From: Bacteroidia bacterium
GTDB taxonomy: Bacteria; Bacteroidota; Bacteroidia; UBA4408
Assembly (NCBI GenBank): GCA_020845635.1
Contig: JADLFI010000050.1
Coordinates: forward strand, 1 to 37,806
Direction: 5' to 3'
Length of the DNA: 37,806 nt
The stretch's first letter is position 1. Each line of letters begins with the position of its first letter. Positions 4,904 to 37,806 of this stretch are shown here, piece after piece. Position numbers and translations under genes: made by a program. Below the pieces are notes generated by a model. It saw only the letters and a program-made list of their open reading frames with translations, had not been told where the DNA came from and did no database searches.

Positions 4904-7879
4904 ATGGAAAAAAAAATCATTTTTATTCTGGGAATTTTGTTCTCTGTTTTTGCTTGCAAAATATATGCGCAAAATACACTTATAACTTCCGAAGACTTTG
5001 AAAGCGGGACTTATATTACCACTTTAAATGATACAGGAATAGCTGCTAATACCGGGTCAAACAAATGGATTATTAATAATTCATACAGTGGTAATGGATT
5101 ATACCCCAATACTATTTCTCAAGACAGTACTGTGGGAGGATTAATTACTCATCCCAACAGTCAGTATTTACATATATACGACTCGGTAAGTGCCGCAAAC
5201 AATGGTGTTTCAAACGCTATATATAATCCCCAAAATGCATCAGATCGATTTACTGTAGTAAAACAGTTTTGTACTTTAGGGTTTAGCGGAGTTACTGTTG
5301 CTTATTACTATTTATGTAAGGGCGATAGTACTAATGCATACGGTCAAACTTATTACAGTATCAATAATGGTGCATGGACTCCTTTTCCCGGTGCGGTTTA
5401 TAGAAATACTAATAAATGGAAATATACCGAGCTGATAGATCCTGTTTTTGATAATAAAAGTAATGTGAGAATAGGTTTCAGATGGACAAACAACAGTACC
5501 AACAGTAACATAAAAACTTCATTTGCAATTGACGATATAAGAGTTGTAGGCAACTTTGATGTTAATATGGTTGGTATTACTATTGATTCGTTAAAACAAG
5601 TTCCGGTATGCCAAAATTTTAATTTCTTAGCCTATTTTTCATTAAGTAATCCTTTGTGTGGTAGTGGTTTTTACCAGATAGAATTAAGCAATGCTTCAGG
5701 TAACTTCAATAATCCAACCAGTTTAGGAATTTATCAATTAAACAATCTGAATATTCACCCTGTATTGTCATTAAACATTCCTGCCAGTACACCTCCCGGA
5801 GTTTGCTATAAGATAAGGATTACACGTATTGATGTTACCCCAAATGTGGTTAGCATGGTTAGTAATTGCTTTGAAGTGTTGCATTGCGGAAATACCGTTA
5901 CAACGCTTGAACCCGTCATGTTATCAAACCCTCTTGATACAATTTGTGTAGGTAGTGTTATTGATATTCCATTCTTTTCTACCGGGGTTTTCGTTAATAA
6001 TACTTATGTAGCTCAATTGTCTGACTCGGCCGGAAATTTTCCGCCTAACCCAAATGTTTTAGGAACATTTCCTAACTCCAACACTTATGACCCTGCCTTA
6101 GGTTCATTACCGGGTAATGTATCAGGTTTACTCAGCCCTTTGTTTCATCCTATACCTCCGGGATGTAATTATTACATTCGTGTAATATCTATTAATCCAA
6201 GCGCTATTGGAAGTGTTTATGGTCCTTTTTGTATCAGGAATTGCGATATTCTTACTAATGACCATCAGGATATAAAAGCATGTATTACTACTACTACGGG
6301 GTATGATACTACTTGTACAATTCAGGTACACCAATACGACTCAAATGCTGTGTATAACCCCGGAAATGAGTTTAAATTACAGTTGCTCAGCAGCATGACA
6401 TTTTCTGTGGTAAATACAGGTGGTTTGGGGTCTATTGAAGCTACCGGTGATACAATTATGCCTGTAAGTATTCCGGATTTAAATGGTTTAATGGCTTTAG
6501 GTTTAATGCCCGGCTTATATTATGCCAGAATAATAGCTACAAACAGCTCTAATATGTGGAATAGTTTAGGAACATTAATTAGAGTAGTAATAGGAGCACC
6601 TGAAGATGTTCCTTTAGGAGTATATGCTTACAATCCTACTAACTTTACCGGTTTTATTCCTGTTGGCGATTCAACCATTTGTTTAGGGTCAGCAATTTAT
6701 TTCACAATGTTACCTTATAATAGTAATTCAAGCTATGTGTGGACTTTAAATAACCAAACTAATTGGAGTACAGATCAATATACAGGTGTATTGTTTAACC
6801 AAACAGGAAATTTTTACATGAGTGTGGTCGAGACCAATTATGGATGCGTAGGTCCGGGTTCAGATACAGCCAAGATAACTGTTATTGGGCCGCCATCAGT
6901 TACCGTCTCAGGCCCCAATCAGGTTTGTGTTGGTGATACAGCAACGTTTAACGGTATATTGCAGAATAATACCTATTACCATTGGAGTACAAGTAACAAC
7001 GGACAAATTATAGATACTTTGAATAATATTACAAATATTTATTTCCCCAATACAGGTTCGGTACCGGTCTATTTGCACGCTGTAAATAGTTGTGGAGTGG
7101 CTAATGGTACAAAAAATATTATGGTGCGGCCTTTGCCAACGGTTGACGCAGGCAATGATACAACTATATGCCCCGGAATTCCTTTTACGCTTTCCACACC
7201 TGCCGGCAGTAACTATAATTATTATTGGATGGTAAATGACTCAACCTTTGCAACTACCCAAGAAACATTTGTTATCCCTGACCAAACAACAACCTACACT
7301 ATTAAAGTAACAAGCTTTGGGGCACTTGCCTGTAAAGGACAAGATTCAATAACAATAAGCTTAAAAGCACCCGGCTCAAGCTCCTATACCGATAGTACCA
7401 TTTGTGAGGGCGATCTAATACGATTAGATCCCGGAAGCGGAATAAATTATGTTTGGAATACCGGTTTTGAAGGGCAAATACTGGAGGTTAACCAACCGGG
7501 TACTTATGTAGTTGTTTATAACGAGTCAGCAGGAATTTGCTCTTCAAAAGATACCTTTAATATTCAAACCAAATACTGTGAAGAACCATTGCCCGATTCG
7601 CTCTTTGTGCCTAATGTATTTACAGTTAATGGCGATGGCTTAAACGATAAGTTTCGTATTTTCAATACAAATTATCAATCGCTGGAAGTTGTTATTTACA
7701 ACCGTTGGGGACAAAAAGTAGGCTATTGGAATGGAATTGACGGAGGTTGGGACGGAACACATATTGATAGTGGAAAAAATTGCCCCGATGGAGTGTATTT
7801 TTATGTTGGAAATGCACAAAGCAAAAATAATATTCCTCCTAAAGAGATTCATGGCACGGTTACTTTAATACGAAAGTAA
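4904..7879 (+). CDS. Large secreted protein with PKD/Ig-like domains and a gliding-motility (CHU_C) C-terminal domain
   Basis: The 991-residue product has a signal peptide (MEKKIIFILG to about residue 22, ending IYAQ). An N-terminal domain at about 28-215 carries SEDFESG and looks like a jelly-roll adhesion module. Long beta-rich middle regions follow. Two PKD/Ig-like modules lie at about 660-830 (GPNQVCVGDTATF and DAGNDTTICPG are typical of Bacteroidota PKD-like repeats). The C-terminal CHU_C domain begins near PNVFTVNGDGLND, contains YNRWGQKV and GVYFYVG, and ends GTVTLIRK. This is the type B sorting signal for the type IX secretion system. It is the second such protein here, transcribed away from the first across a 159-base spacer. 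It is probably cell-surface or secreted. No catalytic motif is visible. Confidence 0.85.
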   Translation: MEKKIIFILGILFSVFACKIYAQNTLITSEDFESGTYITTLNDTGIAANTGSNKWIINNSYSGNGLYPNTISQDSTVGGLITHPNSQYLHIYDSVSAANNGVSNAIYNPQNASDRFTVVKQFCTLGFSGVTVAYYYLCKGDSTNAYGQTYYSINNGAWTPFPGAVYRNTNKWKYTELIDPVFDNKSNVRIGFRWTNNSTNSNIKTSFAIDDIRVVGNFDVNMVGITIDSLKQVPVCQNFNFLAYFSLSNPLCGSGFYQIELSNASGNFNNPTSLGIYQLNNLNIHPVLSLNIPASTPPGVCYKIRITRIDVTPNVVSMVSNCFEVLHCGNTVTTLEPVMLSNPLDTICVGSVIDIPFFSTGVFVNNTYVAQLSDSAGNFPPNPNVLGTFPNSNTYDPALGSLPGNVSGLLSPLFHPIPPGCNYYIRVISINPSAIGSVYGPFCIRNCDILTNDHQDIKACITTTTGYDTTCTIQVHQYDSNAVYNPGNEFKLQLLSSMTFSVVNTGGLGSIEATGDTIMPVSIPDLNGLMALGLMPGLYYARIIATNSSNMWNSLGTLIRVVIGAPEDVPLGVYAYNPTNFTGFIPVGDSTICLGSAIYFTMLPYNSNSSYVWTLNNQTNWSTDQYTGVLFNQTGNFYMSVVETNYGCVGPGSDTAKITVIGPPSVTVSGPNQVCVGDTATFNGILQNNTYYHWSTSNNGQIIDTLNNITNIYFPNTGSVPVYLHAVNSCGVANGTKNIMVRPLPTVDAGNDTTICPGIPFTLSTPAGSNYNYYWMVNDSTFATTQETFVIPDQTTTYTIKVTSFGALACKGQDSITISLKAPGSSSYTDSTICEGDLIRLDPGSGINYVWNTGFEGQILEVNQPGTYVVVYNESAGICSSKDTFNIQTKYCEEPLPDSLFVPNVFTVNGDGLNDKFRIFNTNYQSLEVVIYNRWGQKVGYWNGIDGGWDGTHIDSGKNCPDGVYFYVGNAQSKNNIPPKEIHGTVTLIRK

Positions 7880-12526: not shown

Positions 12527-13399
12527 ATGACAACGAAAAAAGTAGAAATGATTTTTAGCCCCAATGCACCACATTTTGTTGGAAATGGGTTTAGAGTACA
12601 TAACTTTATTCCTAGCATTAGCTGTTTAAGTATGCAACGCATGAATCCATTTATTTTAATGGATTATAATTCTAAGTTTTTTTTTGAACCCAGTGTTGAG
12701 CCAAGGGGAGTAGGGGTACATCCACATAGAGGTTTTGAAACTGTAACTATTGCCTATAAAGGAAAAATTGAACATAGAGACAATAGTGGTGGAGGTGGCG
12801 TTATAGGCGAAGGCGATGTACAATGGATGACTGCCGGATCGGGCGTGTTACACAAAGAGTTTCACGAAAAAGAATGGAGTAAGAAAGGTGGAGAATTTCA
12901 AATGGTTCAACTTTGGGTTAACTTACCTTCCAAGGAAAAGAAGAACCCATCCAAATATCAGTCAATTCAAAATAATGATATTCCAAGATTTTATCTTGAA
13001 AATAATAGCGGAGAAATAGAGGTTATTGCAGGTAAGTATAATGGAACTGCCGGGGTAGCGCAAACACATACGCCACTACACCTGTATAATGCCAAACTAA
13101 AAAGAAATGCTGAAGTAACATTTAATTTCCCCGAAAATTATAATACCGCTTTACTGGTCATTGAAGGGGATATTCACATAAATAATGCTGAACAGGCTTC
13201 TAACGATCACTTTGTTTTAATGGCCAATAAAGGTCGTGAGTTTGCTATTAAAGCTCATGCCGATTCAATTATCTTGGTTTTAAGTGGCGAACCCATACAT
13301 GAACCCATAGTGGCTCAAGGTCCTTTTGTAATGAATAGCCGCCAAGAGATAATTCAGGCATACGAAGATTTTCGTTCCGGTAAATTTGGGGCATTATAA
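12527..13399 (+). CDS. Pirin-family bicupin protein
   Basis: The 290-residue protein has the N-terminal cupin metal site of pirins intact: H65 and H67 in GVHPHRGFETVTI, then H109 and E111 in GSGVLHKEFHE. These correspond to the four iron ligands of human pirin. A second, metal-free cupin occupies about 165-285 and contains the usual late motif SGEPIHEPIVAQGPFVMN. Pirins are iron proteins; some bacterial members have quercetin 2,3-dioxygenase activity, but the physiological role is often unclear. It is a single gene with a candidate promoter upstream and pckA 250 bases downstream. Family confidence is very high, activity unknown. Confidence 0.93.
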   Translation: MTTKKVEMIFSPNAPHFVGNGFRVHNFIPSISCLSMQRMNPFILMDYNSKFFFEPSVEPRGVGVHPHRGFETVTIAYKGKIEHRDNSGGGGVIGEGDVQWMTAGSGVLHKEFHEKEWSKKGGEFQMVQLWVNLPSKEKKNPSKYQSIQNNDIPRFYLENNSGEIEVIAGKYNGTAGVAQTHTPLHLYNAKLKRNAEVTFNFPENYNTALLVIEGDIHINNAEQASNDHFVLMANKGREFAIKAHADSIILVLSGEPIHEPIVAQGPFVMNSRQEIIQAYEDFRSGKFGAL

Positions 13400-13606
13400 G
13401 CCTTATTATTGAAAATGTTGGGTTAAAAACTATATTAATGTGATTAGAGATTTGCTCTTAATGATTATTTTGGTAAATAAAGTTGATAAGTTTTTTTGGT
13501 CATAAAATATATCTCTAAGCCCTTATATAGTTGCGTTTAGGGTAATTTGTAATGATTCAAAAGAAGGATTTTAACTAAACTTTCAGGATTTTATTGATAA
13601 AATAAC

Positions 13607-30683: not shown

Positions 30684-31030
30684 GAAATTAAATCCGTTGA
30701 GTTTTATATCATTTTTTTGCTCTATTTTGGTTGACCTTTCAATATTATAGCGGCAAGTTATTCAACTCCCAGTGGACTATAAAGTTACATGATATTTGTG
30801 TAAAACCTTTTTTCCTTTCACAATAAATTCATCTATTCAAAGCTAGTCAAAATTTAGATAATAACGAGCTATATTCTGAGAGCTTAATAATTCACGACCC
30901 TTCTTCATGCTTTCCTGAAACATCAGCCTGTGAAAAAACTCGAGTATTTAACACAAGCTGTTTATTTTTTTGAAATAAAAATACAAATATAAACTGATAA
31001 ACATCTAAAGCTATTCAATCGAACTCCGGA

Positions 31031-31089
31031 AGCTTTATTCAACACAGGATTAAATCAAAGCATAGCTTCGTTTAATCCCTATATGTTAC
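31031..31089 (+). repeat. Dispersed intergenic hairpin repeat, copy B
   Basis: Shares AGCTTTATTCAAC, ACAGGATTAAATC, CTTCGTTTAAT and ATATGTTAC in order with copy A at 7982-8055, without its 19-base insert. Here the core folds well: GGATTAAATCAAAGC (31047-31061) pairs with GCTTCGTTTAATCC (31065-31078) over 13 bp with one bulge and one mismatch. Its right end (GTTAC) coincides with the start of the cassette's left inverted repeat. Confidence 0.65.
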
Positions 31090-31099
31090 CACCAGTGCT
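31085..31099 (+). repeat. Left inverted repeat of the cassette
   Basis: GTTACCACCAGTGCT; pairs with 37672-37686 with 14 of 15 positions complementary. Overlaps the last 5 bases of hairpin repeat copy B. Confidence 0.6.
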
Positions 31100-31203
31100 T
31101 CCTTGCCTATCGTGGTTTGTCAGTCTATATGTTAATGCTTTTTTCATTGTCTTTTGTTGTGCGGTGGCTTATTTTTTAAAATTTCTTTTTCTCTTCGGTT
31201 GGC

Positions 31204-31272
31204 TTTGCAAGCTCTTTGACAAAGCTTTGGTCTGAGGGTCGGCTTGTGCGGCTATGGCAATGTGCTTGCAAA
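31204..31272 (+). other. Structured noncoding left end of the cassette
   Basis: Perfect 9-bp inverted repeat TTTGCAAGC (31204-31212) / GCTTGCAAA (31264-31272) enclosing a smaller CTTTG-A-CAAAG palindrome (31214-31224) and the G/T-rich motifs shared with the right end. It lies just beyond the helicase stop and could act as a transcript end or a recombination structure. Confidence 0.45.
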
Positions 31273-31294
31273 TTGTTTGGCTTACTTGAAATAC

Positions 31295-33133
31295 TTACCA
31301 TTCATCTTCATTTGTTTGATTAATTTCTACTGTCGATGCCATAGATTTATATCGCTTAAAAATTTCCAAACTGTCTTTAATTGCCTCATACTCTTCGTGG
31401 TCTCTGAGTTCCTCATCTATTATGTCAAATACCTTGTAGTTGGAGATTACAAAGCATTTTTTAATGGCTCTTGTTATAGCCACGTTCAATCGGTTAGGGC
31501 TATAAAAAAAGTCCAACCTTCTCATTGATAATAGTGGATGAGAATTTGCAAAACTGTATATGATATACTCTCTTTCTTGCCCTTGCATACCATCAACTGT
31601 GTCAACTAGCATGGTGTCAAATGGCTTTGAGATAGATTTTGGCAGTATCTTTTTAACTTCATTTTTTATTTCTCTTACTTGGGCACGGAAGGGAGATATA
31701 ATGCCAATGTCTTTTATGTTTACACCATTCAGTAAAAGGTCTGACACTAATTCTGCAACAAGTTTTGCTTCGTGAGGTGAACGATGATTTCCATCAAAAA
31801 CATTATGCAGAATCAGTTTATGAGATTCGCTGTTCAAAATTTCAGGATGATGTTTACCTTGATACCTTGTATTATCTTCCTGAGTTGTAGATGAAGATTG
31901 AAGCAAATCTTGATAAAATAACGTGTTCGGAATTTTAATTAATGACTTATTCAATCGATAGGAAGTGTTCAGAAGGTTAATTTCGTTACGGTAAATTCGT
32001 GCTAATCTGCTAAAAATAGATTCAGCAAACATTTCATTATTTGATCCTTTTGGAATTATGGGGTCAAGTTGCTTATGGTCACCCACAAAAATATATTTCC
32101 CGGTTCGGCACATTGCCGCAATTGATAAAGGAATACTTAATTGTGCAGCTTCATCAATAATACACACATCGAATTTCCAGCCGTCCAATTTTTTACTTCC
32201 CGGATAGCAAAGTGAGTATGCAGTTGAACCGATTGCAATTCCTTTTTGACTGAAATTAGTGTTGTTTATATACCCAGAATAAGTTACCCGAGATTTCTTT
32301 GCGACAAAGGGATTCTCTTGTACTTCTTTGTTGCTTGCTTTTTCACCAATCTTGATGACTTTTGTGTTGTCCTTTATTTTTGATGCAATTGCATTAAGAC
32401 AGTTATTAATAGCAGTATGTGTTGGTGCTGTTACGAAAACCTTTAAGCCAGAATCAACAAGATAATTAACAATATTTCCAATAGTTTCTGTTTTCCCTGT
32501 ACCTGGAGGCCCTTGAATTATACAAAAGTCACTTGCATTGATGGCTTTTAAGTAAGCTGTGTTCTGAGAATCGTTAAGATATCCTAATTTTTGCGAATAG
32601 CCTTGGAAGGAATTTTTGGTTTTGCCATTTAAGAAGTTTTCAATTTTTTGAAGCGTTGCAGGATTGTTTTTTAATACGTCAGCAGCGGTTAGTAGTAATT
32701 TCGTTCCGATATCAACTTTTTCTGTATTTATCTCCCAATTGTTTTTTGGGTACGTTGCATATTCAATATAACATGAGCTTACATTAAAATCATTCGGTTT
32801 TAAAATGAAGTTTTCCGTACTATCTTCTTCAACCTCCATTATAAATTCCCTGCTACCATAACTTAAACGAACTGGATTGCCCTCTTTAAACTTTGAGATG
32901 TTGTTGTCACAAATAACTTTAACTGATGAGATATACCTCTGCGATGAAGGTAATGGATGACACCACTGATTTGGCAAGCCTTCGAAAAACTCCATTTCAA
33001 CACGGAGATTAGTCATTGTTACTCCTTTAGCAACCCTTTCGTCTAATGGTAATCTTTGTTGCTCTTCAAAATCCTGAAGGTTTTTGGTAAGTTCAATTTG
33101 AATTGCTGCTTCAAATTCTTTTAGTAGGTCCAT
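31295..33133 (-). CDS. Upf1/Dna2-like superfamily 1 helicase
   Basis: The 612-residue, compact SF1B-type helicase has a complete motif set: Q-motif region near Q190, Walker A GPPGTGKT (208-215), APTHTA (Ia, 236-241), Walker B DEAAQ (327-331), GDHKQLDP (III, 351-358), SYR (391-393), VDGMQGQE (V, 513-520) and NRLNVAITRA (VI, 547-556). The N-terminal 180 residues include a beta-rich region, probably the nucleic-acid-binding stalk/barrel domain of Upf1-like proteins. It should unwind DNA or RNA with ATP. It is the last gene of the reverse transcriptase operon and starts 1 base after the nuclease gene, so the two are likely to act together, as a split version of nuclease-helicase fusions such as Dna2. 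Confidence 0.93.
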   Translation of the reverse strand: MDLLKEFEAAIQIELTKNLQDFEEQQRLPLDERVAKGVTMTNLRVEMEFFEGLPNQWCHPLPSSQRYISSVKVICDNNISKFKEGNPVRLSYGSREFIMEVEEDSTENFILKPNDFNVSSCYIEYATYPKNNWEINTEKVDIGTKLLLTAADVLKNNPATLQKIENFLNGKTKNSFQGYSQKLGYLNDSQNTAYLKAINASDFCIIQGPPGTGKTETIGNIVNYLVDSGLKVFVTAPTHTAINNCLNAIASKIKDNTKVIKIGEKASNKEVQENPFVAKKSRVTYSGYINNTNFSQKGIAIGSTAYSLCYPGSKKLDGWKFDVCIIDEAAQLSIPLSIAAMCRTGKYIFVGDHKQLDPIIPKGSNNEMFAESIFSRLARIYRNEINLLNTSYRLNKSLIKIPNTLFYQDLLQSSSTTQEDNTRYQGKHHPEILNSESHKLILHNVFDGNHRSPHEAKLVAELVSDLLLNGVNIKDIGIISPFRAQVREIKNEVKKILPKSISKPFDTMLVDTVDGMQGQEREYIIYSFANSHPLLSMRRLDFFYSPNRLNVAITRAIKKCFVISNYKVFDIIDEELRDHEEYEAIKDSLEIFKRYKSMASTVEINQTNEDEW

Positions 33134-33134
33134 G

Positions 33135-34985
33135 TTATATTTTTACTTTTAGTGAGTTTAAAATGATGTTAGTTTCTTTTTTCATCAAAGGTACATCCAC
33201 CACATGGTAGTCTGTGTAGTTTTCGTGTAACACTATTAACTTCATTGATGATATTTTCATAGCATATTCCGTTTCAGCAATATGCTTATAAATGTTCTGT
33301 TGTAGACAGTATCTATTGAAACTTGAATTATCTAATGAGCTTAATTCTGATAAGGCGTAGCCATATCCGAAAATTCTTGGTCGTCCATCAATAATTAGTT
33401 TTTTACTTCTCTTCCAGTCTAGCATTACATATTCGTCTTTATTTTCTTTTTTGAAAAGACAATCAATGGTTCCTGCAACATTATACTTGTCAGAGAAAAT
33501 CATTCTTTCCGCATCAAAGAACAGTAGGTTTCTTGGTTTTATTTCTTTGTTATAAAAATCTAGGAATAATTCAAACTCCTTTGAGTCTGAATCAAACTCG
33601 TTTTGCTTAAGAAAACATTCGATTTGATTATGCAGATATGTTCCTTTTTCAGCAGCTTCATCTCGCATTAATAGATACTCGTCCAATACATCTTCCTCTG
33701 TTCTGTTTTCTTCTTCCGCTTTTCGTTCAATATATCTCTTGAGGTCAAAAGGAAAAAATCGTTCGATTAGAGTCGTTACAGAGATATACTCGGCATTACC
33801 AGTTTCATCTTTTGGATGTACATATTTGTGTGATTCTTCGTCAAATGCTATACTGCTATTCCAACCATCAAATTGAAATCTCTTAGTTCTCTGAATTACA
33901 TTTTCTACACTTTCCGTTTCCGAAGTATCTATTTCAATTTCCTTGTAACTGTATTGTTTTTGAAATCTTTCAATTCCAAGATATTTTTCACGGTAGTAAA
34001 TCTTTTGCCATTGTATGCATTGATTGTAGTCCCATTGATTTTCTCTGAAACAAGTTGTATCGGTTTTAAAATTTCGATTGTATATTGAGTTAAGAACATT
34101 CTTTACATAGTCAATACATTCGTAGGGCTGAGTGTGAACTTGCTTTTCAGTGAACCGTATTACTATCCATCCGCTTTCGGTAAAAAATAAATCTCTGATG
34201 TTATCTTGTTTTATTTCATCCTCAGGATTAATGAAATGGGTTGGATATCTGTAATAACCATCATAGGGCTCATCTATTTCAATGTCAATGTACAAGTTTA
34301 GATTTTTATCGAACAAAACGATATCTGGTTCATATGGCTTATTAAAATTAGGTATTACCATATGAACATTATTAGTCATTTCAATGCCCGTGATATTTTG
34401 TTTTAGCTGATTATAAAAGTCACTCTCCTTGTATCCCTTTTGATTAGAACGTCCATTTCTAGGCAGTTTTAAAATCGTATTACTTTTAGGCATTTTAACG
34501 ACAGGGTAAAGGTATTGCTCGTCTTGTGCGAAATGACTATTAGGTTCAAATAATATTCTTAAGTCATCTGTTTGCTCTAGATTAGGTTCTGACTTGATGA
34601 TTTGTTTAGTAAACTCTCTCGGACTTTCTTCATCTTGCCTAGGTTTTATCTTACCTGTTGGTTGTTGACTTTTATCACTAGGTTGTTTTGTTTTATTTTC
34701 CTTTCCTGTACTTTGCTTTATCGGGCTAGCTTCTTTGTTTATGGTTTTATATTCTTCATAAACTTCTAATGGCTCTTGTACAACTGTTAGTGTTTTTTTA
34801 TTGGACTCTTTTAATTTTTTTTTCTCGTGTTTATGTTTTGCCCAATCTTGTTTTATTTCTGTAAAAAACTCACTCTTTTTTTCTTTGCTCAGTTGTGCAG
34901 GTGACGTAACGCCATAAAGTTCCATCTTACCTAAAAAGAAGGCTCTATACTCTTTCTGTAATTCAGATAGCTTTCTTTCGTTCAT
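33135..34985 (-). CDS. Protein with two PD-(D/E)XK-like nuclease domains
   Basis: The 616-residue protein has three parts. Residues 1-130 are helical and then very Lys/Gln/Ser-rich and probably disordered. At about 185-300 a DUF559/Vsr-like fold shows E187, PD at 220-221 (EPDIVLFD) and a YIDIEIDEP strand (232-240) followed by GWIVIRF; a canonical D/E-x-K is not obvious, the strand reading IEID. At about 395-590 a RecB/Cas4-like domain shows LHNQIE (H452), GTIDC (D508), LDWKRSKK (D523 and K525) and QxxxY (Q562-Y566), the full motif set of active RecB-type exonucleases. It starts 48 bases after the small HEPN-like gene and precedes the helicase by 1 base. It probably cuts or trims DNA in concert with the helicase. 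Confidence 0.8.
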   Translation of the reverse strand: MNERKLSELQKEYRAFFLGKMELYGVTSPAQLSKEKKSEFFTEIKQDWAKHKHEKKKLKESNKKTLTVVQEPLEVYEEYKTINKEASPIKQSTGKENKTKQPSDKSQQPTGKIKPRQDEESPREFTKQIIKSEPNLEQTDDLRILFEPNSHFAQDEQYLYPVVKMPKSNTILKLPRNGRSNQKGYKESDFYNQLKQNITGIEMTNNVHMVIPNFNKPYEPDIVLFDKNLNLYIDIEIDEPYDGYYRYPTHFINPEDEIKQDNIRDLFFTESGWIVIRFTEKQVHTQPYECIDYVKNVLNSIYNRNFKTDTTCFRENQWDYNQCIQWQKIYYREKYLGIERFQKQYSYKEIEIDTSETESVENVIQRTKRFQFDGWNSSIAFDEESHKYVHPKDETGNAEYISVTTLIERFFPFDLKRYIERKAEEENRTEEDVLDEYLLMRDEAAEKGTYLHNQIECFLKQNEFDSDSKEFELFLDFYNKEIKPRNLLFFDAERMIFSDKYNVAGTIDCLFKKENKDEYVMLDWKRSKKLIIDGRPRIFGYGYALSELSSLDNSSFNRYCLQQNIYKHIAETEYAMKISSMKLIVLHENYTDYHVVDVPLMKKETNIILNSLKVKI

Positions 34986-35033
34986 ATGAGCTAATTATTT
35001 ATTTTCAAGTCACTAATAATTATATTCCATTAA

Positions 35034-35669
35034 CTATTTAGGCACTTTATTTTCACCCATCACCATATGAGAAAACGCAATCAATGAATGTTTGAAGCAT
35101 TGAATAATAACATCTCTCCATTTGTTGCACTGAGAATTAGATATTCTTTTTGGAATTCTAATCCCATCCTTTTCTTCGGTTTGTATGTGCTGAAAAGCAG
35201 ATCGAATTTGATATATATTCTTGAAGTTTTGTCCGATCTCTTGTTCAATTCCACCCTTACCTATAAGATAATTGTAAACATCGGTTTCTTTTATACCAGC
35301 ATACGTTTTAGGTATTGATTCACCTTTATCAATTTGAATATACTTAAGCAAAAAGTTATCATAGCATTTAAGCGCACTATCTGTCCATCCTTTTATTTTT
35401 CTGCCCCAGATATGCTTCACGGTTGGGCAGTGCTCCAAACAGTCTTTAGCATTTTCATTTGAAGACTGATAATAAGGCGAACCCAGCCATTGTTTTAAAT
35501 TCAGTTGCAATTCGCTTTCAATAATGTCTTTTGTCAGATACTCTACAAATTGATTGTTAAGCTCATTTAGTAAGTCTTTAACGTCTGAAGTAATGTAGTT
35601 AAGTTGATATTCCGGGGTTGAAGCACCGGAAAAAGATTGCATTGTATTTCTTATTTCCGTAAACTTCAT
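35034..35669 (-). CDS. Small operon protein with a HEPN-like R-x4-H motif
   Basis: The 211-residue, mostly helical protein was not recognised by overall sequence. In the C-terminal half, after a helix QEIGQNFKNIYQI, it carries R156-SAFQ-H161 at the start of a further segment, then a last amphipathic helix WRDVIIQCFKHSLIAF. R-x4-6-H late in a helical domain is the active-site pattern of HEPN ribonucleases and nucleotidyltransferase-linked toxins, but Ser rather than the usual polar Asn/Asp/His follows the Arg, so the call is tentative. Its ATG overlaps the reverse transcriptase stop (ATGA), indicating translational coupling and probable complex formation or stoichiometric production. It could be an RNase effector or a structural partner. 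Confidence 0.6.
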   Translation of the reverse strand: MKFTEIRNTMQSFSGASTPEYQLNYITSDVKDLLNELNNQFVEYLTKDIIESELQLNLKQWLGSPYYQSSNENAKDCLEHCPTVKHIWGRKIKGWTDSALKCYDNFLLKYIQIDKGESIPKTYAGIKETDVYNYLIGKGGIEQEIGQNFKNIYQIRSAFQHIQTEEKDGIRIPKRISNSQCNKWRDVIIQCFKHSLIAFSHMVMGENKVPK

Positions 35670-37384
35670 AATCCCATTTGTTTAACAAGTTCATCTATAG
35701 TACTAACAAGATTAGTATCCTTTTTCCAATAGTCCAGTGTTATCAATTTCAAGTAATTATTCGCTTCCTTAGAGAGCTGTACTCGTAAGGTTGATTTTAA
35801 TTGTTGGTCATCAGAATGTTTAATAAGCATGCAGTATAGAGCATAGCGAACTAATTCTGAGTTTTCAGCTTTTAGATATTTGAAAAACACTCTAAGTTCC
35901 CTGTCAGAATACCTGAAATTGTAGGTAAGGCATGTAATGATGTGATAGCGATAGCATTCGTAATTTTTATCTGCTTTGTAAATTGAAATAAGTTCTTCTC
36001 TCAAAGTCCCATTATCCTTGTAATGCTGAAGCGTTAAAATATAATTACTTGCCCTCCAATAAAATTTCTTCAAAGCGAAAAGCCAGTATTGCAGAAGATT
36101 ATCTGATGCTTTGACTTGCTTGTATTCAGAAAGTGAACGAACTGCTGTGCCGTATTTGGCACTTAAACGAATGAAGTCAATATCATCCGTTTTTTCAGGC
36201 TCAGCCAATTCAAGTGAATCATTTTTAAAAAGACTAGGTAGTTCAAGTTCAACATCGCTGATTTCTTTTTCCCAAAAAGCAATAATTTTTTCAGGGTCAG
36301 TAATGTTTTCTAATTGTTTTTTAGCATCACTTTCATCATGTTCTTCGGGCGATTGTTCGCTTAAACCGAGTAATGATTTTATGATGTTACTTTCTAGTCC
36401 ACCTTCAGAAAGCTCAGTAAAAAAAGATTCATCCTCTGTATAATCGTTTCCTATAACTTCAAATCGTCTGAGTTCTTTTACCGTTTCATCTTCTTTGGCT
36501 GTGTCAATGGCGGTTATACCTGTCTTTTTTGAATTAATAGAAAGACCATGTCCTTTTAAATAATTGTCAATATGGACTAACACATTTCTCAATTCGATTT
36601 CAGAATATCCATAGATTTTGATGTCGTCCATGTAGCGATAATACTTGAAAGCTTCGCTTATCAACTCCTTGTCAAGTGGATATAAAAGTAAGTTTGCTAG
36701 GAGATAGGAAGGCTGTGGCCCTTGTGGTATTCCAACACCCGGAGTGCTGCTTTCTTTAGTCCCCGACCATGCATTCAGGCAAACCGAAAGTAAGTCCAGA
36801 ATTTCATCCTCCACACCAAAATGAGTACTTAGTGTAAAAAGCAAATTGTAGTGTGGTATGGAATCAAAAAAACCTGTTATATCTGTTTCGAACTTGTGTG
36901 TTGCCTTGTCTTGCTCTATAGCTTTTATTACAGAGTCTTTGAACCTTACAAATAAGGATTTCCAAAACTTGAAAAAGAAATATTTCGGATTTTCTTGTTC
37001 GAGTAATTCAGCACCTTGTCTTGTTTCTGGCATTAAAACTGAACCAAATACAAAATCATCATGCTCTGCCAACAATTCATAATTTCTTGCTGCTATCACA
37101 TTTGCAATAGCTTGGTATACTAAAGCATCTTCAATCATCAAAAGCGTTTTTGTCCTTTGTGTGCCTGATGATTTTGGCTCGTAATATTTAAAGCCACGTT
37201 GGGGTGAATACTTTCCGACTATGAGTTTTTCTGAAAGTTGCTTTAAGTTTTTATCCAGTTGAGCACCAAAGGCATGTATTCCAAAACGGTCTTTCACTAA
37301 CCATTCAGGCCAGCATACTATTCTGTAATAGGCTAGTTTAAGGTTGTCAGTACTGAAATATGTTTCTAATGTTCTATCACTCAT
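35666..37384 (-). CDS. Defence-type (UG/Abi-like) reverse transcriptase
   Basis: The 572-residue protein has fingers-palm motifs of a prokaryotic reverse transcriptase: RT1/2 region RTKTLLMIEDALVYQAI (77-93), motif A TDITGFFDSI (D168), motif B GIPQGPQPS (218-226), catalytic YMDD (251-254) and a motif D-like GHGLSINSKKTGI (278-290). There is no maturase/HNH domain of group II introns, no retron-type ncRNA arrangement evident, and no DGR-type motif. After the palm comes an acidic linker (about 295-395) and then roughly 180 residues of short helices (e.g. ELRVFFKYLKAENSELVRYALYCMLIK) resembling the alpha-helical repeat extension of Abi/UG reverse transcriptases. It is the first gene of the four-gene operon. 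It probably makes cDNA or untemplated DNA in anti-phage defence. Which UG class it belongs to cannot be told by eye. Confidence 0.88.
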   Translation of the reverse strand: MSDRTLETYFSTDNLKLAYYRIVCWPEWLVKDRFGIHAFGAQLDKNLKQLSEKLIVGKYSPQRGFKYYEPKSSGTQRTKTLLMIEDALVYQAIANVIAARNYELLAEHDDFVFGSVLMPETRQGAELLEQENPKYFFFKFWKSLFVRFKDSVIKAIEQDKATHKFETDITGFFDSIPHYNLLFTLSTHFGVEDEILDLLSVCLNAWSGTKESSTPGVGIPQGPQPSYLLANLLLYPLDKELISEAFKYYRYMDDIKIYGYSEIELRNVLVHIDNYLKGHGLSINSKKTGITAIDTAKEDETVKELRRFEVIGNDYTEDESFFTELSEGGLESNIIKSLLGLSEQSPEEHDESDAKKQLENITDPEKIIAFWEKEISDVELELPSLFKNDSLELAEPEKTDDIDFIRLSAKYGTAVRSLSEYKQVKASDNLLQYWLFALKKFYWRASNYILTLQHYKDNGTLREELISIYKADKNYECYRYHIITCLTYNFRYSDRELRVFFKYLKAENSELVRYALYCMLIKHSDDQQLKSTLRVQLSKEANNYLKLITLDYWKKDTNLVSTIDELVKQMGL

Positions 37385-37397
37385 TATTTCAAAATCT

Positions 37398-37405
37398 CAA
37401 AGTTA
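37398..37405 (-). promoter_or_regulatory. Candidate -7 element of the reverse transcriptase operon
   Basis: On the minus strand this reads TAACTTTG, matching TAnnTTTG, 13 bases before the ATG. No -33 TTG is apparent. If used, the leader is very short and the upstream hairpin would not be part of this mRNA. Confidence 0.35.
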
Positions 37406-37431
37406 AAATTTGTTACGTTGTGCGATGGTAA

Positions 37432-37496
37432 AAACGGCTCTTTTGGTTTTGCGAAGCATTGGCTTTGTGTGTCGGGCAAAACCAAATGTGCCGTTT
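37432..37496 (-). other. Long hairpin upstream of the reverse transcriptase; candidate noncoding RNA or recombination structure
   Basis: AAACGGC (37432-37438) pairs with GCCGTTT (37490-37496), and TTTGGTTTTGC (37442-37452) with GCAAAACCAAA (37476-37486). That is 18 Watson-Crick pairs separated by a 3x3 internal loop, with a 23-base apical loop. It starts 48 bases upstream of the reverse transcriptase ATG. Several defence reverse transcriptases use a noncoding RNA encoded next to the gene; this is the only strong candidate here. Transcription is not shown. Confidence 0.45.
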
Positions 37497-37671
37497 GTGC
37501 GGCTGGTTAAAAGAAATTTTAAAAAATGCGAAGGGTCGGCTTTTTCCTTTTTCTCTGTCACCTGTCCCAACAGCAAAACACGGTCAGCTTGTTTGTCTGT
37601 CCGCTTGGTCGATATGATCTGTATGTCGAGTCCATTTTTAGTCATTGTCTTGCTGTGTCGTCTGTCTTTTT

Positions 37672-37686
37672 AGCATTGGTGGTAAC
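37672..37686 (-). repeat. Right inverted repeat of the cassette
   Basis: AGCATTGGTGGTAAC; its reverse complement GTTACCACCAATGCT matches the left copy at 31085-31099 except for one A/G difference. Confidence 0.6.
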
Positions 37687-37734
37687 GGCAGTCTGTCTAA
37701 TAACTTCCTTTCTCCGTTAATTTCTTTCACTAAT

Positions 37735-37806
37735 CTACACATTAATTTCAATTTTAAGCAACTTTAAAAAGTCTTTTTTCAAAATAGATTTCTCTAAAAT
37801 GAAAAA
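37735..37806 (-). CDS. Possible C-terminal end of a gene entering from the right (partial)
   Basis: On the minus strand a frame is open from the window edge for 23 codons (ends KDFLKLLKIEINV) to a TAG at 37735-37737. A second minus-strand frame is also open for 16 codons, so the reading frame is uncertain. It lies outside the cassette's right repeat and would be a flanking chromosomal gene. Confidence 0.2.
   Translation of the reverse strand, partial: FFILEKSILKKDFLKLLKIEINV

Follow-up and report, generated by a model that had tools for sequence, protein, structure and literature searches.

Integrons built on the IntI integrase have been reported in Bacteroidota, where their prevalence varies (PMC9668308), and the superintegrons of Vibrio include promoter-bearing cassettes that hold no gene (PMC11014356). 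Beside defence reverse transcriptases (RTs) of the DRT2, DRT3 and DRT9 types, noncoding RNAs have been described (PMC12596737, PMC12483538, PMC13174585). The window examined here, that is, the whole analysed stretch of 37,806 nucleotides, carries a long hairpin shortly before the gene of an RT of the UG19 group, which the first-pass annotation read mainly as the noncoding RNA of that RT and alternatively as a folded recombination end. Our analysis indicated that this hairpin is very probably an element of a cassette frame and not an RNA of the RT. To the best explanation as a whole, a cassette frame whose hairpins insulate the enclosed operon, we assign a probability of roughly 0.6, a compromise between high confidence in the frame and a tentative preference for insulation. 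No paper describing such frame hairpins was found in the part of the open-access literature that was covered, nor was any on the function of UG19.

Judged from its sequence, the UG19 RT operon is an integron-type gene cassette of 6.6 kb (31085-37686), with the hairpin before the RT gene (hairpin 1) as part of its frame; it is so classed because of the order of elements in its relatives and the uniform orientation of sites and hairpins there. The features of the cassette and its borders are the following:

37683..37806, plus strand: boundary repeat A, on the far side of the leader; about 10 copies in the genome, the contig ending inside the repeat
37508..37686, minus strand: cassette leader; it opens with the cassette start GTTACCACCAATGCT (37686 down to 37672) and extends to hairpin 1
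37432..37496, minus strand: hairpin 1, a frame hairpin (inverted repeat, fold and covariance model match)
37398..37405, minus strand: predicted −7 promoter box TAACTTTG, in the gap that separates hairpin 1 from the RT start codon
35666..37384, minus strand: reverse transcriptase of the UG19 group, 572 aa (PADLOC RT_UG19, E 8.5e-116; Pfam RVT_1, E 3.8e-19)
35034..35669, minus strand: UG19-associated partner protein RTas1465, 211 aa (PADLOC, E 5.2e-12)
33135..34985, minus strand: third operon gene, 616 aa, possibly a nuclease (no family above cut-off; weak DUF559 nuclease-like match)
31295..33133, minus strand: fourth operon gene, a superfamily 1 helicase (AAA_11/AAA_12), 612 aa (Pfam/PADLOC)
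31204..31272, minus strand: hairpin 2, a frame hairpin (inverted repeat; held-out match to model R1, E 0.0022)
31085..31203, minus strand: cassette trailer, ending in AGCACTGGTGGTAAC (31099 down to 31085), which is complementary to the cassette start
30919..31098, minus strand: boundary repeat C, adjoining the cassette; about 40 copies in the genome, arrayed with genes between them

Membership in UG19 was indicated by matches to both the RT_UG19 profile and the associated protein RTas1465, and the leader is common to cassettes with unrelated genes. Hairpin 1 consists of two arms of 21 nt (37432-37452 and 37476-37496) that are 90% complementary and spaced by 23 nt, with the sequence AAACGGC-ACA-TTTGGTTTTGC / GCAAAACCAAA-AGA-GCCGTTT, and is followed on the minus strand by TTTTT. 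An inverted-repeat check reproduced the architecture given in the first-pass annotation, with 7 bp, a 3x3 loop, 11 bp and an apical loop of 23 nt, as well as the distance of 48 nt to the RT start codon. Within the 3x3 loop the central C-G is able to pair, so that the helix is interrupted by two single mismatches, which read A-A on one strand and T-T on the opposite one. Folded as single-stranded DNA, hairpin 1 reached −20.8 kcal/mol (z −5.3), a value equalled by none of 200 shuffles, and the 296-nt leader folded as RNA gave a z of −3.0. Among the close inverted repeats of the window hairpin 1 is indeed the strongest, as had been claimed, and the runner-up (31204-31225/31251-31272), which had gone unreported, is hairpin 2 of the same operon. 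Hairpin 2 starts 22 nt past the stop codon of the helicase, the last gene of the four-gene operon, and its sequence TTTGCAAGC-ACA-TTGCCATAGC / GCTTTGTCAA-AGA-GCTTGCAAA repeats the mismatch design of hairpin 1; in both, a variable outer stem leads through ACA facing AGA into an inner stem that closes a loop of 23-25 nt. An open reading frame of 80 aa (37403-37645, minus strand) also lies inside the leader; it is similar in some relatives (L155, L159 and L160, for example) and, judged by eye, interrupted by stops in most other leaders, and may be chance or a relic.

A covariance model built from nine copies of the hairpin, which matched 37417-37507 of the window with 102.5 bits, found matches in 129 of 395 Bacteroidia genomes and in 7 of the 8 genomes of the same order, as against close RT homologues in 3 of the 395; random control regions of those genomes, 280 kb in all, gave no match. 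In the same genome, copies precede a type IIG methylase gene (contig C14) and an hsdR gene (C43), and on C38 a circularly permuted hairpin stands before an HTH-hsdM pair, beside a tyrosine recombinase. Elsewhere, the hairpin stands before dozens of unrelated operons for restriction-modification, other defence and, in some cases, apparently metal resistance. The same hairpin on cassettes that lack an RT, an outcome that the first-pass annotation had itself named as pointing away from an RNA role, was thus widely found.

Hairpin 1 accompanies UG19 relatives from named genomes at five loci (L233, L234, L235, L236 and L238), and the closest RT relatives whose start codon is present keep it in 5 of 6 cases. 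The sixth, from Lunatimonas (L240; 97% identity over the N-terminal part of the RT), retains the leader and the promoter box and has lost the hairpin exactly between two GCACA repeats; this loss is weaker evidence, because an insertion at the GIPQG motif disrupts the UG19 RT gene of Lunatimonas salinarum (L239 1-143, L240 9678-9727). Two further UG19 RTs have no hairpin, namely that of a Flavobacteriaceae genome (L237), with an intact RT 65% identical and an intact partner gene, and that of L212. Conservation of the element with the RT across RT homologues, as expected of a DRT noncoding RNA, was therefore not found. The same Flavobacteriaceae genome encodes a second, retron-like RT just downstream of its UG19 operon (L237 12553-13644).

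The pairing of the stems was assayed on 39 copies outside the model, aligned without regard to structure. Standard pairs filled 98.8% of the pair cells, compared with at most 66.8% when the partner was slid by 1-3 columns; double changes occurred in 59 cells versus 11.2 in shuffles, and 9 of the 17 stem pairs had changed on both sides. The first nine copies gave the same picture. Stem pairing is thus under selection. The first-pass annotation had proposed covariation as a check, and the compensatory changes proved strong, but they track the cassette frame and not the RT.

In the relatives, the elements follow one another as attC-like site, leader, hairpin 1, promoter, operon, stop codon, hairpin 2, trailer and attC-like site. 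The frequencies given here for the frame are biased, as the loci were chosen as best matches of the model, and they rest on simple open reading frame calls and on many contigs from metagenome assemblies that end in repeats. Neighbouring hairpins more than 400 nt apart had the same orientation in 37 of 37 cases (78 loci). Strong matches, representing hairpin 1, were followed by a gene on the same strand in 83 of 89 cases, at a median gap of about 57 nt, and none of 62 lay within 70 nt of a stop codon; weak matches, the hairpin 2 class, stood no more than 27 nt from a stop codon in 24 of 47. Between hairpin 1 and the start codon, a promoter box of the Bacteroidota type (TAnnTTTG) was present in 22 of 59 cassettes versus 1.9 expected, and in 10 together with a fitting −33 motif, versus 0.14 expected, while a forward pair of promoter motifs occurred in at most 2 of 73 leaders. 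Because the predicted promoter lies between the hairpin and the start codon, the hairpin should fall outside the RT transcript. Hairpin 1 was followed by a run of at least five Ts in 44 of the 59 (by none in 12), and hairpin 2 by at least four in 12 of 25 (by none in 13); a simple terminator scan with a loop limit of 8 did not call the hairpin. Furthermore, the motif GCCAACGCAC often occurs directly after hairpin 1 and directly before hairpin 2, and also in both loops, and its complement GTGCGTTGGC resembles the attC border CGTTGGC.

The cassettes carry mostly restriction-modification and other defence operons. Among 66 first genes after hairpin 1, Pfam assigned N6_Mtase to 8, HsdM_N to 7, HTH_3 to 6, ResIII to 5, HSDR_N and Eco57I to 4 each, a C5 methylase to 3, and MmeI and RT to 2 each, in agreement with PADLOC; these families were absent from the top 25 listed for 66 control genes. 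The frame is not exclusive to defence, since some cassettes resemble metal-resistance operons by their protein starts (L174, L204, L207 and L210, with heavy-metal-binding and ArsR-type proteins).

In many loci, a site of about 121 bp that resembles attC lies directly upstream of the leader. Its two ends are marked by an invariant AAC and an invariant GTT, and its arms vary in sequence without losing their pairing (in nine sequences, 15 of 18 pairs showed compensation). A covariance model of this site gave 104 matches at E < 0.01, all on the hairpin strand, and no match in control DNA; the site lay 14-194 nt before hairpin 1 in 30 of 38 cases and 18-149 nt after hairpin 2 in 25 of 31. Tandem sites of this kind, with AAC...GTT borders and covarying arms, were found in relatives including the UG19 cassettes of L238, with a site on both sides (7166-7297 and 13395-13526), and of L233, with one directly before the leader. 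Without a model, looking for attC at every GTT position gave nothing beyond the control level, and with the correct border and a score of at least 9 the signal was modest (9 of 55 versus 15 of 542 in control) and became clear only with the covariance model. The hairpin itself was rejected as the attC site, as the consensus of hairpin 1 lacks AAC/GTT boxes and the adjoining element fits. The notion of a folded recombination end, put forward as the alternative in the first-pass annotation, was therefore largely supported: the hairpin does lie in the conserved leader of a cassette, but the hallmarks of a recombination site belong to the neighbouring attC-like element. In the window, the flanking repeats A and C belong to a different type; they carry the AAC/GTT borders only (GTTACC/GGTAAC), and a compensated attC fold sought in them was not found. 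Repeats A and C also recur on contigs C10 (1-13000, L056) and C13 (1-12000, L055), where they are arrayed with small cassettes of Fic, HipA-like and toxin-antitoxin-like genes and often terminate contigs; this is a second, different cassette array without frame hairpins.

Tyrosine recombinase genes stand directly upstream of the leader at five loci (L154, L169, L176, L204 and L207) and divergently at L162 and on C38. The recombinases of the arrays matched the XerA/integron-integrase model NF040815 best or nearly best, yet the seven that adjoin arrays, one of them a fragment, scored 132-211 bits versus an integron-integrase cut-off of 265, and that of C38, at 182 bits, also remained below it. 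An integrase with the insertion specific to IntI was not found for the hairpin arrays, and a true IntI was present in 1 of the 395 Bacteroidia genomes (G145, C40 3592-4530, L242). A canonical IntI integron is accordingly unsupported, and a plasmid or phage origin was rejected as well, no similar DNA being present in a plasmid or phage collection. The hairpin arrays thus seem to work like integrons and are not classed as IntI integrons, and the cassettes would move by recombination at the attC-like sites through tyrosine recombinases related to XerA and IntI. On C38 (G000, L018) the tyrosine recombinase (172-1248) has an extra N-terminal domain and is divergent from the HTH-hsdM operon, and the circularly permuted frame hairpin (1500-1575) lies between the two.

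As to what the frame hairpins do, we tentatively favour transcriptional insulation over a role as DNA, because both hairpins stand exactly at the borders of the operon and, on the coding strand, a T run comes after hairpin 1. The frame hairpins would mark the borders of a transcription unit: hairpin 1 with its T run, just before the cassette promoter, would stop transcription arriving from upstream cassettes, and hairpin 2, directly past the last stop codon, would close the message of the operon. A costly or toxic defence operon might in this way be insulated wherever its cassette lands. Intrinsic termination alone is unlikely to be the whole function, because the T run is missing at 13 of 25 hairpins 2 and 12 of 59 hairpins 1; the long stem of modest G+C and the conserved loop of 23 nt, which terminators do not need, likewise speak against a plain terminator, and insulation does not explain the loop sequence or the pair of A-A mismatches.

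A second possibility, which we hold to be less probable but worth serious consideration, is that the frame hairpins work at the DNA level, either as folds or as repeats, in the exchange or excision of cargo, a second level of recombination nested inside the cassette. It would better account for the conserved loops, the recurrence of GCCAACGCAC beside and within both hairpins with its complement resembling CGTTGGC, and the often absent T run of hairpin 2, and it is consistent with alike frames around unrelated cargo and with the permuted copy beside a tyrosine recombinase. AAC/GTT borders are lacking from the hairpin itself, however, and no identical pair of frames with swapped cargo was found; the precise loss of hairpin 1 between the GCACA repeats of Lunatimonas, which would fit excision, is also expected from replication slippage between short repeats. 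That the palindromic hairpins of leader and trailer are selfish passengers, spreading with the cassettes without benefit to them, is unlikely: the close similarity in sequence throughout the class, the modular leaders, which differ in length, and the tolerated loss in Lunatimonas are in line with this reading, but the stems are kept by compensatory change, and random insertion would not produce the constant position and orientation that the hairpins show with respect to promoter, stop codon and attC-like site. Finally, that hairpin 1 is, or belongs to, a noncoding RNA serving the UG19 RT as template or cofactor, as in DRT2, DRT3 and DRT9, can practically be dismissed, since despite its closeness to the RT gene, its retention in most of the closest RT relatives and the RNA fold of the leader, it precedes many operons without an RT, is missing from two UG19 loci, lies upstream of the predicted promoter in leaders that almost never hold a forward promoter of their own, and yielded no family match in Rfam beyond one chance hit.

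Collectively, at somewhat below even odds in our estimate, these loci may represent a large, undescribed Bacteroidota family of integron-like arrays that use XerA-like recombinases instead of IntI and hold whole defence operons between two hairpins for insulation or cargo exchange. If so, the arrays of Bacteroidota would constitute a swappable immune repertoire, and the cassette frame would explain the shuffling of defence operons, including rare UG19 RTs, in many Bacteroidia. The two sequence models, of the frame hairpin and of the attC-like site, offer a way to delimit cassettes and thereby to locate unknown defence genes. The locus also holds a warning, namely that a hairpin next to a defence RT, even one that covaries, is not necessarily the RNA of that RT.

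With IntI integrons the arrays share the head-to-tail arrangement, the defence cargo and directional attC-like sites whose AAC/GTT borders are invariant and whose arms covary; some arrays also have, at their edge, a recombinase gene with an attI-like site. They differ in that the cassettes consist of long operons of several genes, bring a promoter of their own and are framed by two hairpins, and in that the recombinases have no IntI match region and fall short of the integron-integrase cut-off. Like the promoter cassettes of Vibrio, they supply expression signals from inside the array and not from Pc alone, but those cassettes are gene-less, whereas here each operon has its promoter behind a conserved hairpin. 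With the RNAs of DRT2, DRT3 and DRT9 the hairpin has in common that a structured element adjoins a defence RT gene, but here the element is also found on cassettes without an RT. With intrinsic terminators it shares a stem followed by a coding-strand T run (44 of 59 hairpins 1), whereas the frame hairpins are long and mismatched, enclose a large conserved loop and, in the case of hairpin 2, often have no T run.
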